Shown piece after piece: positions 23,220 through 33,043 of a stretch of 64,000 bases of DNA. The notes below the pieces were generated by a model. That model did not search any database. It was not told the origin of the DNA and saw only the letters and a list, made by a program, of their open reading frames with translations. The stretch is from an uncultured Bacteroidia bacterium (lineage in GTDB: Bacteria > Bacteroidota > Bacteroidia > Bacteroidales > Prolixibacteraceae). The first letter of the stretch is position 1. Each line of letters begins with the position of its first letter. The translations under genes were made by a program, and so were the position numbers. The DNA is taken from NCBI GenBank assembly GCA_903927965.1, contig CAIYPA010000348.1, positions 1-64,000 on the forward strand. Direction: 5' to 3'.

Positions 23220-24569
23220 TTGATGAGAAAAATTAAACAGTTTTTATTCGTAACCATGCTCCTGTCGGGGATGATTTACAGTTCTTGTAAAAAGAGTAGT
23301 TCCTCCGATTCCAGCACAACAACCGTAGCCGGTGTAGGTGAGTATATTGGTTCTGTAGTTGTCCATTCCAAGACAGATACAATGCTGACCTATTTCCTGT
23401 CTAAAAATTACAACAGGATTACCGGATCGCTTGAGTTGTACACTTCGGATGATATTGATTTCGCGAAATACCTGGCAAATCTCAAATCGGTAACAGGTTC
23501 TGTTCAGCTTTATAAGATAAGAAATAGTGATCTCTCCTTCTTGTCAAATGTCACAAAGATAACAGGAGACCTTCAGATTTCTGCGTGTCCCAACCTTACA
23601 TCCCTATCGGGATTATATAAGCTCGATACGTTGACCACTGGACTGATTATTGAAAATAATCCCAAAATTAAGGATTTGCAAGGATTGGGACATGTCCTAA
23701 CAATGATGAATCTTACAATCACCAACAATGCGGCCCTTCAGTCTCTGGTTGGTCTGAACAGCCTGTCTTCAATAACGGGAAATATTTCCATTGGTGAAAA
23801 TCCGATTCTTACATCGGTCAATGGATTGGTAAGCCTTGAGACAGTAACATCGAATATCCTGATGTACAATAACCCACAGCAGCTCAACCTTTATGGCTTA
23901 AACAGTTTAAAGGGGATAACAGGAAACCTGACCCTTTCGGGTTTACCTTCACTTACTGATATTACCGCTTTAAGTTTACTTGATGACACAATTGCCTCAA
24001 TTGTTATTTCCGGTTGCAACCATTTGACCGATTTGAATGGACTAAATAACCTGCCCAAGATTTCAAAAGACCTAAGGTTGGTGAATTGCAATGAATTAAT
24101 TAATTTACAAGGACTTACTAAAATAGATACAATTGGCGGGACAATAGAACTAAGCAAACTTCCAGCTTTCAGGTCGTTTGCTGGACCGACAGCATTGAAA
24201 GGAATCAGAAAAGACCTTCGGATCGAAGAATGTAATGCATTAACATCGTTGGAAGGTTTAACGAAATTGGATAGCATTAATGGTAGTCTTGTCCTGGACG
24301 ACAATTTAAGTCTTACAAACCTCAAAGGGATTGATAAACTAAAGGTGGTCAGGGGAAATGTTGAGATCCTTAATAATGAGAATCTGGTATCACTTGATGG
24401 TATGGATAACATAACCACAATTTCAGGAAACCTTGATGTTTATTACAATCCCAAACTTACAAGTTATTGCGCAATTAAATCTTTGACCCTGACTAAATTT
24501 GCATACATTGGATTCAATGGTTATTCTCCGACTCTTACCCAAATAAAAGCTGGGAGTTGCTCGAAGTAA
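23220..24569 (+). CDS. Leucine-rich/receptor-L-domain-like repeat lipoprotein
   Basis: Lipobox-like SGMIYSSCKK; about 23-25-aa repeats of I.G.L.I..NP.LTSL.GL..L. Confidence 0.7.
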   Translation: MMRKIKQFLFVTMLLSGMIYSSCKKSSSSDSSTTTVAGVGEYIGSVVVHSKTDTMLTYFLSKNYNRITGSLELYTSDDIDFAKYLANLKSVTGSVQLYKIRNSDLSFLSNVTKITGDLQISACPNLTSLSGLYKLDTLTTGLIIENNPKIKDLQGLGHVLTMMNLTITNNAALQSLVGLNSLSSITGNISIGENPILTSVNGLVSLETVTSNILMYNNPQQLNLYGLNSLKGITGNLTLSGLPSLTDITALSLLDDTIASIVISGCNHLTDLNGLNNLPKISKDLRLVNCNELINLQGLTKIDTIGGTIELSKLPAFRSFAGPTALKGIRKDLRIEECNALTSLEGLTKLDSINGSLVLDDNLSLTNLKGIDKLKVVRGNVEILNNENLVSLDGMDNITTISGNLDVYYNPKLTSYCAIKSLTLTKFAYIGFNGYSPTLTQIKAGSCSK

Positions 24570-24635: not shown

Positions 24636-25649
24636 TTATTCGATCTCTTCTGTCCAATGATAAGGATCTGGTTCTAACCCATATTGAATTCCACGAAGTT
24701 TTTCATAAAGTTGAACACTAATTTTTCCCGGTTCATTTCCATAAAGATATTCAATGTCCTTGTCGGCATCATAGACCCTTTTAATTGGCGAAATAACGGC
24801 GGCAGTACCACAAGCTCCCACTTCGTCAAATTCAGCCAACTCCTCAACATCAATCCTACGTTCCTCAACCTTTAATCCCACATCGGAGGCAAGTTGCCTA
24901 AGGCTCATATTCGTTATTGAGGGCAAGATGGATTCAGATTTTGGTGTAACATAGGTATTGCCTTTAATGGCAAAAAAATTGGCAGGGCCACATTCATCAA
25001 TGTATTTCTTTTCTCTTGCATCAAGGTATAAAACAGCGGAAAATCCTTCGTCATGTGCACGATGACCCGCAACAAGACTGGCTGCATAATTTCCACCAAC
25101 TTTAATTTTCCCTGTTCCAAGCGGCGCCGCCCGGTCGTATTCACGGTAAATTACCAGATCCGTTGGTTTAAAACCTTCTTTAAAATAAGGACCAACAGGC
25201 ATTACCATTACCATAAAGAGATATTCATCAGAAGGTTTGACACCGATCTGGGGACCAGTGCCAATCAACAATGGGCGTACATACAACGAAGCACCAGAAT
25301 CATAAGGGGGAACGTAAGCCAGATTCAGCTTCACTACTTTCCTAACAGCTTCAGTAAACAACTCTGTGGGAACTTCCGCCATCATGATCCCCTGAGCAGA
25401 GTGCTGCATCCTTTTTGCATTCTCTTCCATCCTAAAGACCCTGATCTTTCCGTCTTTTCCCCTGAAGGCCTTCAAGCCTTCAAATGCTTCCTGACCGTAA
25501 TGAAAAGTAGTTGCTGCAATATGCAATGAGACATTTTCAGAATCAGAGATTTCCAAATCTCCCCATTGACCATTCCGATACCAGCAACGAATATTATAAT
25601 CTGCTTTACTATACCCAAATCCCAGGTTTTTCCAATCGATAGTTTTCAT
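24636..25649 (-). CDS. ilvE: Branched-chain amino acid aminotransferase
   Basis: HYGQEAFEGLKAFRGKDGKIRVFRMEENAKRM, GKIKVGGNYAASL, DECGPANFFAIKG. Confidence 0.96.
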   Translation of the reverse strand: MKTIDWKNLGFGYSKADYNIRCWYRNGQWGDLEISDSENVSLHIAATTFHYGQEAFEGLKAFRGKDGKIRVFRMEENAKRMQHSAQGIMMAEVPTELFTEAVRKVVKLNLAYVPPYDSGASLYVRPLLIGTGPQIGVKPSDEYLFMVMVMPVGPYFKEGFKPTDLVIYREYDRAAPLGTGKIKVGGNYAASLVAGHRAHDEGFSAVLYLDAREKKYIDECGPANFFAIKGNTYVTPKSESILPSITNMSLRQLASDVGLKVEERRIDVEELAEFDEVGACGTAAVISPIKRVYDADKDIEYLYGNEPGKISVQLYEKLRGIQYGLEPDPYHWTEEIE

Positions 25650-25965
25650 AGCTTAATTTTATTCTATTAAAATTCTGTTTGCTAAAATACAATTAATCTA
25701 CCAACAGGCAAAGAACAATTTTCAATCCCATTAAATCACCAATAAATTGAATTTCGATCAAAATTTTTATTAACCGAAATATCAACAATTCGAATGGGCA
25801 AGATAGGCCATATTTGCTTTTATATTACTAATTATCAAAATGTTATCCAACTCAATAAAACCATTGAAACAGTTTGGAAACTACAATAAATATCCAGCAC
25901 AAAAAAAAATTTTTTAATCCTTTTATTGGCTGAAAAATAAGCTTAAAAACTATTTAAATTTAATA

Positions 25966-25973
25966 TACATTTG
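25966..25973 (+). promoter_or_regulatory. Bacteroidota -7-like element (TACATTTG) upstream of the KamA cassette
   Basis: TANNTTTG match about 98 nt upstream of 26071. Confidence 0.35.
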
Positions 25974-26070
25974 CAAAGTTTTCTACACAGATTAGTTAGT
26001 GTAAAAGCCTGATATTCTGAATAATGTAATCATTTTTCTTAACTTGGAACGTAGAGTAGCATAATTTTAA

Positions 26071-27327
26071 ATGAAAACAGGAAATACAGTGATAGCGCCT
26101 TTAGTTTCGGAAGAGGCATCAACATCCGAATCCCCGGTTCCCATCGTACCGAGAGGGATATTCACACTATTTAATAATAACCTTCAAAATTCCATATCAT
26201 TTCCTTATGATGCTTCGGTAAGTAGTTTTATGAAAAAAAATTACCCTGAAACCACAAAAAAGGAATGGAACAACTGGATTTGGCAGGTTAAAAATAGCAT
26301 TCAAACTGATGAAAGGCTCAAAGAGATATTTGGAGAATCCTATGAAAATGTAATCGGTTCATTGCCTGACAACCATCTGCCTTTTCGGATCACACCCTAT
26401 TTTGCCTCCCTTTTAAACCGGTTTGATGCGGATCACCCACTTTTCAGAACAATGATCCCTGCAAAAGAGGAACTTACAACTGGAAGGGGCGAAAAAATTG
26501 ACCCACTCAATGAGGAATTCGATACACCTGTTCCACATATTGTCCATCGATATCCCGACAGGGTGTTATTTACCGTAACTGGTTTTTGTGCCGCATACTG
26601 TCGGTATTGTACCAGAAGCCATATGGTCGCAAAGGACAATAAAAGTCACGTATCATCACAAAGCTGGGATGTAGCCATTGACTATATTCGTAAACACAAA
26701 GAGATAAGGGATGTACTTATCTCAGGAGGTGACCCTCTTACATTATCGGATACCAGGCTGGAATATCTGTTATCACAATTAAGGGCTATTCCTCACGTCG
26801 AAATAATCAGGATTGGCACCAAAATCCCGGTTGTTCTGCCTATGAGAATTACCAATGCACTGGTTAAAATGATCAAGAAATACCATCCGGTAATGATGAG
26901 CCTTCATTTTTCCCACTTTGACGAATTGAGTATCGAAACAAAAGAGGCTTGTAACCGACTTGCGGATGGTGGAATTCCACTTGGGAGCCAGTGCGTACTT
27001 TTAAAAGGGGTTAATGATTCTGTCGAGACTTTCAAAAAATTGAATCACGAATTGTTAAAAGTACGGGTAAGGCCCTATTATATTTATCAATGCGACTTAA
27101 TTCCCGGTTCGGCCCATTTTCGCACCGAAATAAAAAAAGGTCTTGAAATAATCAAAGGTCTTCGTGGTTATACTACTGGATATGCAGTTCCACATTTTGT
27201 AATAGATGCCCCTGGTGGAGGAGGGAAAATCCCCCTTTTACCTGAATCAATTAAATGTGTAGACGAAAACGGTATCACATTAATCAATTATGAAGGAAAA
27301 GAATACTTTTATCCTGAAAAAACATAA
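26071..27327 (+). CDS. KamA-family radical SAM lysine 2,3-aminomutase-like protein
   Basis: CAAYCRYCTR (CxxxCxxC), SGGDPLT, YYIYQCDLIPGSAHFRT, GYAVPHFVIDAPGGGGK (PLP lysine motif). Confidence 0.93.
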   Translation: MKTGNTVIAPLVSEEASTSESPVPIVPRGIFTLFNNNLQNSISFPYDASVSSFMKKNYPETTKKEWNNWIWQVKNSIQTDERLKEIFGESYENVIGSLPDNHLPFRITPYFASLLNRFDADHPLFRTMIPAKEELTTGRGEKIDPLNEEFDTPVPHIVHRYPDRVLFTVTGFCAAYCRYCTRSHMVAKDNKSHVSSQSWDVAIDYIRKHKEIRDVLISGGDPLTLSDTRLEYLLSQLRAIPHVEIIRIGTKIPVVLPMRITNALVKMIKKYHPVMMSLHFSHFDELSIETKEACNRLADGGIPLGSQCVLLKGVNDSVETFKKLNHELLKVRVRPYYIYQCDLIPGSAHFRTEIKKGLEIIKGLRGYTTGYAVPHFVIDAPGGGGKIPLLPESIKCVDENGITLINYEGKEYFYPEKT

Positions 27328-27342
27328 CTTGAAACCCACAAC

Positions 27343-28335
27343 ATGATAAAAGTAGGCTTAACCTTCGACCTTAAGGAAGATTATCTAAAGCTCGGATATT
27401 CAAATGAGGAAGTCGCTGAGTTTGATTCACCCGATACGATTGATGCCCTTGATAACGCCATTACAACCTTGGGTTTTGAAGTTGTCCGGATTGGAAATAT
27501 TTTCAACCTTGTAAACTTCCTGAACTCAGGAAAAAAATGTGACCTTGTATTCAATATTTGTGAGGGAATGTTTGGCATTGCCCGGGAAGCCCAGGTTCCC
27601 TGCCTTCTTGATGCCTATCGAATTCCATATGTTTTCAGTGAACCGGACGTGTTAAACCTCACTCTAGATAAAGGACTTACCAAATTGGTTGCGGAACAGG
27701 CAGGAATACCTACAGCACGGTTCAAGGTAATCTCACATCGATCTGAAATACAATTAATTAATTTGCCATTCCCTTTGTTTGTAAAACCAGTGGCAGAAGG
27801 GACAAGTAAGGGAATTGATGGGTATTCACTTGTAAGTGATCGATCTCAACTAAATGAGTCGGTCAATTACCTGTTGGAAACCTTCCATCAACCTGTCCTG
27901 GTTGAAACTTTCCTTCCCGGAAGGGAGTTTACTGTGGGAATTACAGGAAGTGGTAACCATACAAAAGCATTGGGTACCATGGAAATCTTGTTGAACGATC
28001 AGGCTCCCCACCCTATCTATTCTTATTCGGTAAAGAAAGATTGGGAAAAATATGCAAGTTACCGAATTGCAACAGATCCGGTAGCAGTTCAATGCGCTGA
28101 ACTTGCAGTTGAGATTTGGAAACTGATCAAAGGTAAAGATGCAGGGCGCATTGACTTCAGGTTAGATGCAGACGGAAATCCCAACATGATTGAAGTTAAT
28201 CCGCTGGCAGGTCTCAATCCAACCTATTCCGATCTTCCCATCCTTGCCAGGTTAAACGGAATTACTTATGAGACTCTCATCGCTGAAATTATGAATTCTG
28301 CTGTCGAACGATTTCATTTAAAGATCCGCCAATGA
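27343..28335 (+). CDS. D-Ala-D-Ala ligase-like ATP-grasp protein (1)
   Basis: VFNICEGMFGIAREAQVPCLLDAYRIPYVFSEPDV, FVKPVAEGTSKGI, GRIDFRLDADGNPNMIEVNPLAGL. Confidence 0.88.
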   Translation: MIKVGLTFDLKEDYLKLGYSNEEVAEFDSPDTIDALDNAITTLGFEVVRIGNIFNLVNFLNSGKKCDLVFNICEGMFGIAREAQVPCLLDAYRIPYVFSEPDVLNLTLDKGLTKLVAEQAGIPTARFKVISHRSEIQLINLPFPLFVKPVAEGTSKGIDGYSLVSDRSQLNESVNYLLETFHQPVLVETFLPGREFTVGITGSGNHTKALGTMEILLNDQAPHPIYSYSVKKDWEKYASYRIATDPVAVQCAELAVEIWKLIKGKDAGRIDFRLDADGNPNMIEVNPLAGLNPTYSDLPILARLNGITYETLIAEIMNSAVERFHLKIRQ

Positions 28336-29273
28336 AAAATATCCACATACTGCATAATCCTGTTAACGATACATCAAACGAGGATGAACTTGATGTATTG
28401 GAACAGGCAGAACTGATCGAAAATGCACTGACGGAATTGGGCTATACCTTTCAAAGGGCTGCTTTTGATTTGAAAAGCAATACTTTAGCTGAGATTAACA
28501 AACTTCAACCTGTTGAAATGGTTTTCAATCTTGTTGAGGCTATCAACGATTCAGGGAAGTTCAGCTATGTTGTACCTGCCCTTCTTGAGTTACAAAAGAT
28601 ACCATTTTCCGGATCAGGCGCAGAAGCAATTTTTAAGACAACAGATAAGGTATTGTGCAAGACCATTCTCCGCTTTCATAAAATAAATACACCTGATTGG
28701 GCTGAAGATCCGGCAGATTTGGTCTCTGATAAATACTATATTGTAAAGCCCATTTCAGAAGATGGCTCTGTTGGAATAGATGATGCAACAATTATCCTTG
28801 GGGAAAAAATAAAAATGATTCCAAAAGATTTTTTTGCGGAGGAATATATTCATGGCCGTGAATTCAATATTTCGGTTCTCGGAGGACAAGAAGATTTTGA
28901 GATTATGCCTCCTGCTGAAATGTGTTTTTCTGAAGAATACTATGTTTCAAAACCCCGTATCCTTGGTTACAAAGCAAAGTGGGATGAAACCTCTCCCGAA
29001 TATCTCAATACAACCAGAAGTTTTCAGTTTGATTTTTCTGACAATGAATTACTTATTGGAATAAAAGAAATTGCTGCTAAATGCTGGGAAATATTCGGAC
29101 TGAATGGATATGCCAGGGTTGATATAAGAGTTGACAATCACAAAATTCCTCAGGTAATTGAAATAAATGCCAACCCATGTATTTCACCGGATAGTGGATT
29201 TATTGCAGCCTGTGAAAAAAAAGGATTGACGCACATTGAAGTGATTAACAGAATAATAAAAGCCTCAAAATAA
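28332..29273 (+). CDS. D-Ala-D-Ala ligase-like ATP-grasp protein (2)
   Basis: VFNLVEAINDSGKFSYVVPALLELQKIPFSGSGAEA, YIVKPISEDGSVGID, ARVDIRVDNHKIPQVIEINANPCI; 4-nt ATGA overlap with previous gene. Confidence 0.87.
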   Translation: MKNIHILHNPVNDTSNEDELDVLEQAELIENALTELGYTFQRAAFDLKSNTLAEINKLQPVEMVFNLVEAINDSGKFSYVVPALLELQKIPFSGSGAEAIFKTTDKVLCKTILRFHKINTPDWAEDPADLVSDKYYIVKPISEDGSVGIDDATIILGEKIKMIPKDFFAEEYIHGREFNISVLGGQEDFEIMPPAEMCFSEEYYVSKPRILGYKAKWDETSPEYLNTTRSFQFDFSDNELLIGIKEIAAKCWEIFGLNGYARVDIRVDNHKIPQVIEINANPCISPDSGFIAACEKKGLTHIEVINRIIKASK

Positions 29274-29274
29274 T

Positions 29275-29769
29275 ATGAAACAAGAATTCAAATCAGTCGG
29301 GTTTAGAAAGATGGTCGTACCAAGTGACGTCATGAATGTAACCCAGATTTTAAAATCCACTGGATATTTTAAGCCTTACGAAATTGATGTTGCCATCGAA
29401 CTGATTGAGGAACGATTAAAAAATGGGGAAGGGTGCGGTTACCTGTTTTATTTCCTTGAAATTGAAGGCCGTACGGTAGCATACGGCTGTTATGGCGAAA
29501 TCCCATGCACAGTAAAGAATTACGACCTTTATTGGTTGGCCGTTGACGGCAACCTGCGAGGAAAGGGACTTGGTACTCTTTTATTGGCTAAAATAGAGTC
29601 TGAAATTAAGTCACATTCCGGAAGGGGAATCTATATCGAAACCTCCAACAAGGAACAATACACTTCTACCATAGCATTTTATCAAAATTGTAACTATAGA
29701 CAAATTGCAGTTTTTGAAGATTTCTATGATCTCAACGACAACAAAGCGGTTTTTTATAAAAAACTCTGA
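29275..29769 (+). CDS. GNAT-family N-acetyltransferase
   Basis: LAVDGNLRGKGLGTLLLAKIESEI acetyl-CoA motif A; FYQNCNYRQIA. Confidence 0.9.
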   Translation: MKQEFKSVGFRKMVVPSDVMNVTQILKSTGYFKPYEIDVAIELIEERLKNGEGCGYLFYFLEIEGRTVAYGCYGEIPCTVKNYDLYWLAVDGNLRGKGLGTLLLAKIESEIKSHSGRGIYIETSNKEQYTSTIAFYQNCNYRQIAVFEDFYDLNDNKAVFYKKL

Positions 29770-29780
29770 TTATCTGTATT

Positions 29781-30359
29781 TTAAAGCTCCTCATAGGTGG
29801 TATCCTGAATAGGTGCCCCCCGATATGTCTCCTGGGCCCTTCCAGCTTTTTTCGTCATGAGCAGTTCCGAAATCCCATTCAGGATCAAAATTGCCCCAAG
29901 AAATGATAGAATTGTCTGGGCACTCTTGAAAGGATCGGTAAATAAATAGGCCCCTGCTGCCAATGTCAATAATGCGATCATTAGGAAAATCCAGGACCAG
30001 AACGATTTTGACAGTGTACTTAAAGATCCCATTAGTTGGGCAAATCCCATCATTAACAGTAAGATTCCTAAAAAGACGACAAACACTTTGATCATTGCTT
30101 CAGGTGATGAAATAAATATAATACCAAATATTATATTAAAAATTCCTTGCAAAGACCAAACCCCGCTTTGACTCCCTGTTTTTTTGAAATTTGACAATAT
30201 CATTGTAATCAACCCTTTAAGGCAAAGCATTGAACCAATTATAATTAGCACTGTTTGCATGGTAAGTCCAGGGACAAAAAGAAACACACATCCGATTGTA
30301 ATTGTCAGGATGCCCCGAAAAACTGAAGTACTTGAGTTTGGTGTAAAAATATTCTTCAT
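29781..30359 (-). CDS. HdeD/DUF308-like multi-pass membrane protein
   Basis: About 180 aa with six hydrophobic segments and internal repeats (FRGILTITIGCVFLFVPGLTMQTVLIIIGSMLCLKG). Confidence 0.75.
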   Translation of the reverse strand: MKNIFTPNSSTSVFRGILTITIGCVFLFVPGLTMQTVLIIIGSMLCLKGLITMILSNFKKTGSQSGVWSLQGIFNIIFGIIFISSPEAMIKVFVVFLGILLLMMGFAQLMGSLSTLSKSFWSWIFLMIALLTLAAGAYLFTDPFKSAQTILSFLGAILILNGISELLMTKKAGRAQETYRGAPIQDTTYEEL

Positions 30360-30483: not shown

Positions 30484-31503
30484 TTGGAACACTCTTTAAT
30501 TGTCAGATCAAGCGACCAGATTATTTTTACCAGCGACCAACACTGGCTTTATCCGCTTTTCGAACTTGAAGATTATCTGGAGCAGAAAAATTTAACTACT
30601 CAGGATCTGATACTTACAGACAAAATCGCCGGGAAAGCTGCTGCCTGCCTGATTGTAAGGCTTGGAATAAAACAATGTCATATCGAATTGTTAAGCGAGC
30701 GTGCAATTCCTGTGTTTAAGTTACACGGCATCAGCTTCACTTATGATCATCTTGTTGATCACATTCAATGTCGGACTGAAGACCTGATTTCAGATAAAAT
30801 GAGTATTGATGATGCATGGCTTTTTTTAAGGAAACGTGCTGGCAGGGTACAGGGATTATCAGTCAAAATTGATAAACTTTCGGTGAGGATCGAGGATAAA
30901 CTGGTCATCAATCAGCTTGATCTTGAAATGGGACGTGGGGAGCAATTGGTGATCCATGGTGCAAATGGAGTTGGTAAAACGACGTTCCTCAGGGCAATTT
31001 TAGGTCTTATTCCTGTATCAGAAGGAGTTATAAAGGTTGGGGATTATCTTGTTGGCAGCAATCTCTGGAAACAATTCAGGAGTGTGATTGGGTATGTCCA
31101 TCAGGAGACGATAAAGAATAACTTTCCGATTTCAGCAGGTGAAGTTGTGCAGATAGGGTTGGGAACAACTTCTGTTTCAAAAAGTGAGAATGAATATCGG
31201 ATTGAAGTCGCAATGCGTCGGACCGGATCGTTTCATTTGGTCAATCAACCCTACCTAACTTTATCGGGTGGCGAAAAACAGCGGGTCTCATTGGCAAGAT
31301 GTTTGTGTCAGAATGCCAGGGTATTTTTAATGGACGAACCCACATCTTTTCTTGATCCCCAGGGCCGCGAAGACTTGTTGCTGTTATTGCATGAATTAAG
31401 CAGAAATGAGGCTCCAACAATGATATTGGTTTCACACGAACAGAATTGGACAGGGCAATTGGACTGGCCACGCAAAGAGCTGAAAGGGGGAAAGTTGTGT
31501 TAG
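30484..31503 (+). CDS. Metal-type ABC transporter ATPase with N-terminal DUF1893-like domain
   Basis: N-term LILTDKIAGKAAACLIVRLGIKQCHIELLSERAIPVFKLHGISFTYDHLV; C-term GANGVGKTTFLRAILGL, LSGGEKQRVSLARCL, VFLMDEPTSFLD. Start codon at 30484 is TTG in sequence; track shows M. Confidence 0.88.
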   Translation: MEHSLIVRSSDQIIFTSDQHWLYPLFELEDYLEQKNLTTQDLILTDKIAGKAAACLIVRLGIKQCHIELLSERAIPVFKLHGISFTYDHLVDHIQCRTEDLISDKMSIDDAWLFLRKRAGRVQGLSVKIDKLSVRIEDKLVINQLDLEMGRGEQLVIHGANGVGKTTFLRAILGLIPVSEGVIKVGDYLVGSNLWKQFRSVIGYVHQETIKNNFPISAGEVVQIGLGTTSVSKSENEYRIEVAMRRTGSFHLVNQPYLTLSGGEKQRVSLARCLCQNARVFLMDEPTSFLDPQGREDLLLLLHELSRNEAPTMILVSHEQNWTGQLDWPRKELKGGKLC

Positions 31504-32294
31504 AACTACTTTCACTACCCCCAATCCTGAAGGGACTTATTGTCCTTGCAATCGCTGGCCTGACCTTTCCAATCACAGGTGTTTATCTTTTCCGTCTTAA
31601 CCTCCTGCCTTTGAGGTTTATGTTGATGCATGGGGCAATACTGGGTGGAGCAGTGGCTCTTGCATTTCAAATCAACCCATTCTGGACAACAATTGCCATC
31701 AACCTTCTGCTTGTTTTGTTTATGGCGAAAACATCACGGTCGATGAAAGCCGATGCAGGACAGATCAGTACTTTCTTCATGGTGATCTCCATTTCATTGG
31801 CCTTTATTTTTATTTATAAATTCAACGTGCCGGCAAAGGATACCCTGACACTGTTGTGGGGAAACTTGTTTACTCTAAGCTGGCCAGAAGTTATCGGAAT
31901 AGGTTTCTTTGCCCTTGTCCTGACCGGATTTCAATATTTCTTTCGTCAGCAATTAAGGGCACTTTTTTTTGATCGCGAAATAGCTTTCACATCCGGGATC
32001 GATGAAAGCCGTCTATATTATTCGGTCATTTTTCTTACAGCCATTACTGTGGCACTTGCAATGAAACTAATCGGCGCCCTGTTATTGGATGCCATTTTAC
32101 TCCTACCACCTATAATTGCCTCTTTTCAGGCGAAAAGTTTAAAACAGATGATTTTAGGTTCTGCCCTTTGGGGCGGGGCATTTGCGACCGGAGGTTTTCT
32201 GCTTTCAATCGCCATCGATATTCCTGCAAGCTCTTCCATTGCAGCACTGGCATCTTTGGCATTTATTATAATCTATCTCACTCAAAAAAAATGA
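31497..32294 (+). CDS. Metal ABC transporter permease (ZnuB/MntB-like), GTG start overlapping previous gene
   Basis: FPITGVYLFRLNLLPLRFMLMHGAILGGAVALAF...; multi-pass; in-frame GTG at 31497. Confidence 0.87.
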   Translation: MLELLSLPPILKGLIVLAIAGLTFPITGVYLFRLNLLPLRFMLMHGAILGGAVALAFQINPFWTTIAINLLLVLFMAKTSRSMKADAGQISTFFMVISISLAFIFIYKFNVPAKDTLTLLWGNLFTLSWPEVIGIGFFALVLTGFQYFFRQQLRALFFDREIAFTSGIDESRLYYSVIFLTAITVALAMKLIGALLLDAILLLPPIIASFQAKSLKQMILGSALWGGAFATGGFLLSIAIDIPASSSIAALASLAFIIIYLTQKK

Positions 32295-33043
32295 AACACA
32301 TCTTATTTATCCTTTTATTCTGGTTTTCAATAATATCGTGCAGCACAAAAAAAATAAATTCCGTGACAGTTGTAGCCACTACCAGTTGGACTGCAGCATA
32401 TGCAATGGCTGCAGGTGCTGCTGATGTCTCTGTACTTGCACCTTACGAAATGGTACATCCAAGTGAATACGAACTCCGTCCGGGTGATATTGCAAGATTA
32501 AATTCGTCAAGATTAATCGTTTATGCAGGTTATGAAGTCATTGTTTCACAACTTAAAACAGGACTAAACCTTCCAGATAACAAAATGGTGAAAATCGCCA
32601 CGAGCTATAACTACGAAGAGATCGAAAAATCGGTCCTTCTGATTGCTGCAAAGCTTGGTACTGAACAAATAGCCATTAAAAATCTGAAAGAAATCAAGGA
32701 TTTGCTATTAAAAGGCAAAGCCGAAGTACAAAAAATAGGCTTCGATAAGCAACCTGTATTGGTCCACTTTTTTCAGGATTCGTTTGCCAAAGAGATGGGA
32801 ATCACGGCTGCCGCTATTTTTGGACCAGCTCCGCCAGAGCCAAAGCAAATAATGGAAATGGCGCAGACAAAAGCAATATTGATTTTAGACAATGCCCACA
32901 GTCCGGTTGGAGGACCAATAAGTGAAATCCTAAAAAAAAGGGAGTACCGGCTTTTATTGAATTTTCCTGGCCTTTATAATACCCGCTCAATAGCAGATGT
33001 TATAAGGTACAATACATTACAGATTACTTCTGGCAATAAATAA
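32291..33043 (+). CDS. Metal ABC transporter substrate-binding lipoprotein (ZnuA-like)
   Basis: Lipobox-like FSIISCS; APYEMVHPSEYELRPGDIARLNSSRLIVYAGYE; ATGA overlap with permease. Confidence 0.83.
   Translation: MKHILFILLFWFSIISCSTKKINSVTVVATTSWTAAYAMAAGAADVSVLAPYEMVHPSEYELRPGDIARLNSSRLIVYAGYEVIVSQLKTGLNLPDNKMVKIATSYNYEEIEKSVLLIAAKLGTEQIAIKNLKEIKDLLLKGKAEVQKIGFDKQPVLVHFFQDSFAKEMGITAAAIFGPAPPEPKQIMEMAQTKAILILDNAHSPVGGPISEILKKREYRLLLNFPGLYNTRSIADVIRYNTLQITSGNK

Follow-up and report, generated by a model that had tools for sequence, protein, structure and literature searches.

A contig from an uncultured bacterium of the Prolixibacteraceae (GenBank assembly GCA_903927965.1, contig CAIYPA010000348.1), the first 64,000 nucleotides of which are referred to here as the window, carries in immediate succession the genes for a KamA-family aminomutase, for two ATP-grasp ligases (AG1 and AG2) and for a GNAT acetyltransferase, and the question raised by this locus is what product such a combination of enzymes might be dedicated to making. 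The original prediction, drawn from the letters of the DNA and a list of its open reading frames, was that beta-lysine (or another beta-amino acid) is joined through amide bonds to one or two partners before being acetylated.

Organization of the locus

In the ORF list of the window, KamA, AG1, AG2 and GNAT are four head-to-tail ORFs on the forward strand between positions 26071 and 29769 (Table 1), separated by a 15-bp gap (KamA/AG1), a 4-bp overlap (AG1/AG2) and a 1-bp gap (AG2/GNAT), an arrangement that had been described correctly to the base. The genes on either side, as judged from their translations, are unrelated to the cassette and lie on the opposite strand, and the unit is therefore taken to comprise four genes. 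A ATACATTTG box upstream of KamA, which three of the four nearest relatives share without a change, resembles TAnnTTTG, the Bacteroidota -7 element, and may mark a promoter. Promoter and terminator scans of the locus gave results near chance, and neither a lysine riboswitch nor any other Rfam RNA was found at gathering score in the window.

Table 1. Positions in the window of the cassette genes, the putative promoter region and nearby genes
Feature	Positions	Strand	Remarks
Secreted repeat protein	23220..24569		Many leucine-rich-like repeats
Branched-chain aminotransferase-like gene	24636..25649	-	Flanking gene
Putative promoter region	25950..26070	+	ATACATTTG box (~25963), ~100 bp before KamA
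KamA-family radical SAM/PLP aminomutase, predicted lysine 2,3-aminomutase	26071..27327	+	418 aa; zinc-site-less, tail-less subgroup
AG1, Ddl-fold ATP-grasp amidoligase	27343..28335	+	330 aa; clade distinct from Ddl
AG2, second Ddl-fold ATP-grasp amidoligase	28332..29273	+	313 aa; clade distinct from Ddl and AG1
GNAT N-acetyltransferase	29275..29769	+	164 aa; PDB 2r7h family, not AblB
Small membrane protein gene	29781..30359	-	Flanking gene
ABC transporter genes (ATPase, permease, periplasmic binding protein)	30484..33043		Just downstream of the cassette; zinc/manganese uptake-like (ORF translations)

Distribution and conservation of the cassette

A scan of named genomes returned at least 583 confirmed relatives, from which 80 loci were kept. 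The order KamA-AG1-AG2-GNAT was found in 42 of these, and the same order with an additional gene inserted (a GNAT-deacetylase fusion, described below) in 12 more; most of the remaining loci are cut by a contig end or are one gene short. Going by MAG labels, some of them attached to single contigs, the hosts belong to about ten phyla, among them Bacteroidota, Thermodesulfobacteriota, Myxococcota, Fidelibacterota, Pseudomonadota and Acidobacteriota, with further representatives labelled (again from MAGs and in part from single contigs) as Planctomycetota, Ignavibacteriota, Calditrichota, Kiritimatiellota, Verrucomicrobiota and Spirochaetota. The four genes thus keep together far beyond Bacteroidota, as the original prediction requires. 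Many of the hosts are MAGs from freshwater lakes or bioreactors, and the cultured ones include Prolixibacter denitrificans and an Ancylomarina strain.

Within the window's own order, AG2 is present in 32 of 198 genomes, mostly beside AG1, GNAT and KamA, and in the window's own genus the ligase pair has a patchy distribution (5 of 10 genomes). Among named genomes, the nearest relatives of the KamA and of both ligases of the window come from Bacteroidia MAGs, Mariniphaga and Prolixibacter, which points to a probable origin of the window in a Prolixibacteraceae-like member of Bacteroidota. Across 33 complete cassettes and the window, the divergence of the four genes is correlated (pairwise r 0.75-0.83, Mantel p 0.001), a value of r to which shared organismal ancestry contributes. 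Dozens of genomes repeat the adjacency, with divergence that matches from gene to gene, and the four-gene grouping has therefore not arisen by chance.

A second arrangement of the cassette, diverged from the first and with the order AG1-AG2-GNAT-KamA, is seen in a different class of the same phylum; there, 79 of 119 genomes carry a relative of AG1. Among four loci of this type (L154, L155, L156 and L158), recG adjoins the cassette in three; it was judged to be a fixed genomic neighbour. Some genomes with this arrangement also carry a third AG-like gene elsewhere (for example at G329:C1:1668329).

Departures from the complete set indicate that not all four steps are always needed: three loci (L107, L075 and L200) have AG2-GNAT, with or without KamA, but lack AG1, and a few loci apparently lack GNAT. 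Since those three lack AG1, AG2-GNAT may be the minimal core. One cassette (L074) contains two adjacent AG1-like ORFs, representing either a duplication or a split gene.

The aminomutase

Membership of the window's enzyme in the KamA family is established by its score against TIGR00238 (350.9 bits, cut-off 199.2), its CxxxCxxC cluster and its PLP lysine; at the same time it falls below the cut-off of every equivalog model, the best of these being TIGR03820 for lysine 2,3-aminomutase (AblA), at 446.7 bits against 525.4. Glutamate and arginine 2,3-aminomutase are matched still further below threshold (TIGR04368, 401.8 versus 650 bits; TIGR04468, 363.2 versus 600 bits).

In clostridial lysine 2,3-aminomutase (LAM), C125, C129 and C132 hold the radical cluster, K337 binds PLP, R134 contacts the substrate carboxylate, and D293 and D330 contact the lysine epsilon-amine; in glutamate 2,3-aminomutase both of these Asp residues are replaced. 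The window's KamA aligns with the clostridial structure (2a5h) over 357 residues (E 1e-116), and in that alignment C173, C177 and C180 of its CAAYCRYC motif correspond to the cluster cysteines, and R182, D342, D379 and K386 to R134, D293, D330 and K337. The intact radical cluster and PLP lysine, and the two lysine-contacting Asp residues that had been picked out by motif, are accordingly borne out by the alignment to clostridial LAM that was proposed as a check, and no complete cassette KamA in the alignment (70-odd) has lost the equivalent of any of the seven residues. The window's enzyme thus has the lysine 2,3-aminomutase substrate residues R134, D293 and D330.

The cassette enzymes nonetheless differ from classical ones. 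They have neither a Cys at position 268 nor a Cys-containing C-terminal tail, both of which are mostly retained by classical LAMs of the same order, and KamA scores in that order are bimodal, with cassette copies at 447-524 bits versus 606-785 for the classical enzymes. Cassette and classical copies also split from one another in the KamA tree, the deepest forks of which are weakly supported owing to the very long branch of the EpmB outgroup. On these sequence grounds, the cassette KamA is a separate subgroup from classical lysine 2,3-aminomutase, lacking the zinc site and the C-terminal tail.

The window's own genome contains no second KamA. In two other genomes, the loci carry AG1-AG2-GNAT without a cassette KamA (L198 in G080 and L199 in G115), and a classical lysine 2,3-aminomutase is encoded elsewhere in each; within the same sample, no genome that carries a cassette KamA also has a lysine 2,3-aminomutase above cut-off. 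This pattern, which involves two genomes only, fits beta-lysine as a needed input to the remaining steps.

The two ligases

Both AG1 and AG2 match PF07478, the C-terminal Pfam domain of D-alanine--D-alanine ligase (Ddl). Assignment to Ddl itself was taken to demand a score above cut-off against NF002378 / TIGR01205 together with placement in the Ddl clade; against NF002378 the two proteins score 141 and 94 bits versus 243, and both are far under every Ddl cut-off. AlphaFold models of AG1 and AG2 (pLDDT 94 and 93) have Ddl enzymes as their nearest PDB folds, at 16-26% identity, and the modelled fold, together with the catalytic ATP/Mg residues seen in the alignment, identifies both as Ddl-fold ATP-grasp enzymes. 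In particular, the residues equivalent to K97, K144, E180, K215, R255, D257, E270 and N272 of DdlB are retained in both ligases, with one AG2 having Asp at position 270.

The substrate pocket, compared with that of DdlB, is altered: H63 is replaced by Glu in both ligases, Y216 by a gap or Trp, and G276, in AG2, by Cys or Asp. We infer that an extra acidic residue in the pocket would suit a diamino acid substrate.

In the ligase tree, AG1, AG2 and Ddl form three separate groups, and the AG1 and AG2 of the second arrangement are orthologous to the cassette ligases (SH-aLRT 90 and 99) and stand apart from Ddl (100). A housekeeping Ddl is encoded elsewhere in the window's own genome, in a PASTA-RluD-Ddl context in which the PASTA-domain-like and RluD-like neighbours were named from their sequence. 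The reading of AG1 and AG2 as housekeeping Ddl, a doubt raised at the outset, was rejected on account of their separate clades.

The acetyltransferase and an associated deacetylase fusion

The cassette GNAT matches PF00583, and its clear relative in the PDB is 2r7h (E 3e-35), which was deposited as a putative D-alanine N-acetyltransferase; a literature search on the locus tags of 2r7h returned nothing relevant. The AblB profile (TIGR03827) gives no match to this protein. The link to ablA/ablB that had been drawn at first is consequently sound as regards the presence of a KamA and a GNAT, and fails as regards the acetyltransferase, which belongs to another family. The window's own genome has no ablB, and the seven genomes of the order that do (of 198) include none of the 32 with AG2, an overlap for which about one genome would be expected, so that its absence is not significant. 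Taken at the level of profiles and gene content, the comparison shows the ablB route and the predicted cassette route to be distinct.

A fifth gene is found in or beside 17 of the 80 cassette loci (for example L064:5257-6999, L066, L093 and L159). Its product fuses an N-terminal GNAT-like domain, recognised by a weak Pfam match at cut-off, to a domain of the histone-deacetylase/acetylpolyamine-amidohydrolase type, in which alignment shows the HDAC-family motifs RPPGHH, DxDYHHGNG, LGLDT and EGGY; no NCBIfam model covers the fusion. Within the window's order it occurs in six of 198 genomes, all of them among the 32 with AG2 (hypergeometric p 1.2e-5), and in at least three of the six it is placed apart from the cassette, on another contig in G026, G110 and G138. 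The window's own genome lacks it. The tie between the fusion and the cassette suggests that the acetylation is reversible or protective.

A proposed pathway and its alternatives

We propose, with a probability of roughly 0.55, that the cassette is a dedicated operon for making an N-acetylated beta-lysine pseudopeptide. KamA would convert L-lysine to beta-lysine; AG1 and AG2, acting as ATP-dependent carboxylate-amine ligases derived from the Ddl fold, would join beta-lysine through one or two amide bonds to partner amino acids, which might also be further lysine or beta-lysine; GNAT would place an acetyl group on a free amine, with a neutral zwitterion as the most likely result; and the fusion, in those hosts that have one, would remove or exchange acetyl groups. 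In this scheme we infer the identity of the substrate, the number of bonds, the order of the steps, the site of acetylation and the role of the pathway. Taken as a whole, the original prediction is upheld in its synteny, in the lysine-specific residues of KamA and in the non-Ddl nature of the ligases, and is corrected in its attribution of the GNAT to the ablB family.

The most likely role for the product is that of an intracellular stress or compatible solute, by analogy with the N-epsilon-acetyl-beta-lysine of methanogens, which is a precedent for a KamA-GNAT route to a zwitterionic solute (PMC1224877). That role is favoured by the abl precedent, by how common the cassette is in one class and by the absence of nearby exporters and regulators; it is weakened by the many hosts from freshwater lakes or bioreactors and by the failure of any osmotic transporter, sensor or regulator to recur among the neighbours of the cassette. 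The broader claim is more tentative, and we place its chances a little short of even: it holds that the two-ligase cassette, spread over some ten phyla and retained by much of a second class, makes a new class of bacterial metabolite, a beta-lysyl pseudopeptide that is ligated twice and acetylated reversibly.

Four other explanations were weighed. The one that survives best, and which we consider unlikely, has the same chemistry yielding a small secreted metabolite, such as an antibiotic, a metallophore or a signal. Ddl-like ATP-grasps accompanied by enzymes that modify amino acids are a typical feature of small peptide natural-product clusters, and the patchy occurrence of the cassette in the window's genus would agree with such a role; however, no exporter, regulator or self-resistance gene recurs beside it, and a compact four-gene unit with so wide a phyletic span, and with a ligase in some two thirds of the genomes of one class, looks more like core physiology. 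An envelope function, in which the ligases would join beta-lysine units to peptidoglycan precursors or to an envelope polymer and GNAT would cap the amine, is prompted by the Ddl fold of both ligases; it appears quite improbable in view of their separation from the Ddl clade, the presence of a normal Ddl in its usual context and the absence of recurring Mur, glycosyltransferase or flippase genes nearby.

If the cassette made N-acetyl-beta-lysine alone, and the ligases acted on something unrelated, KamA and GNAT would be chemically sufficient and the pathway would end in a known osmolyte (PMC1224877). This is rendered very improbable by the observations that the ligases nearly always adjoin GNAT and KamA and diverge together with both, that the GNAT is not AblB and genomes with ablB are a separate set, and that two genomes retain the ligases and GNAT where KamA has been lost. 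A protein- or tRNA-directed modification is scarcely credible: the KamA-family enzyme EpmB serves in the beta-lysylation of EF-P, and pyrrolysine synthesis pairs a radical SAM mutase with the ATP-grasp enzyme PylC, but the window's KamA scores 253.5 bits against the EpmB model (TIGR03821, cut-off 369.3), AG2 scores 19.1 against that for PylC (TIGR03909, cut-off 248.3), and the recurring neighbours include no gene recognised as EpmA-, PylD- or PylS-like.

Should the proposed pseudopeptide operon prove correct, uncultured sediment, lake and syntrophic bacteria would share an unrecognised beta-amino-acid peptide metabolite, and a new solute or stress metabolite would join the short list of beta-amino-acid osmolytes. 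The cassette ligases would easily be mistaken for D-alanine ligases, and the GNAT looks generic. The compactness of the four-gene operon, and its presence in cultured hosts, make the product directly testable.

Relationship to known systems

A search of open-access papers that combined ATP-grasp with aminomutase, KamA, beta-lysine or acetylpolyamine amidohydrolase did not find a description of the cassette. Predicted neighbourhoods in which ATP-grasp amidoligases stand beside amino-acid-modifying enzymes were reportedly described by Iyer et al. in Mol Biosyst in 2009. An acetylated dipeptide that acts as a compatible solute, N-acetylglutaminylglutamine amide, is made by a GNAT and an ATP-grasp enzyme together with an asparagine-synthetase-like amidotransferase, and its pathway has no KamA.

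Three further systems invite comparison. D-alanine--D-alanine ligase and other Ddl-fold dipeptide ligases share with AG1 and AG2 their fold and their ATP/Mg catalytic residues, whereas the cassette enzymes form separate clades, have changed pocket residues and occur as a tandem pair in a KamA operon. The PylB-PylC-PylD pathway resembles the cassette in that a radical SAM lysine mutase is followed by an ATP-grasp ligase; in the cassette, however, KamA is an aminomutase of the PLP type, the ligases resemble Ddl and are not PylC, and neither PylD nor PylS is present. The N-epsilon-acetyl-beta-lysine pathway (ablA/ablB, yodO/yodP) likewise couples a lysine 2,3-aminomutase to a GNAT and would have in common with the cassette a product that is likely a neutral acetylated beta-amino acid; the cassette differs from it in having a KamA of another subgroup (447 versus a cut-off of 525 bits), a GNAT of another family and two additional ATP-grasp ligases.
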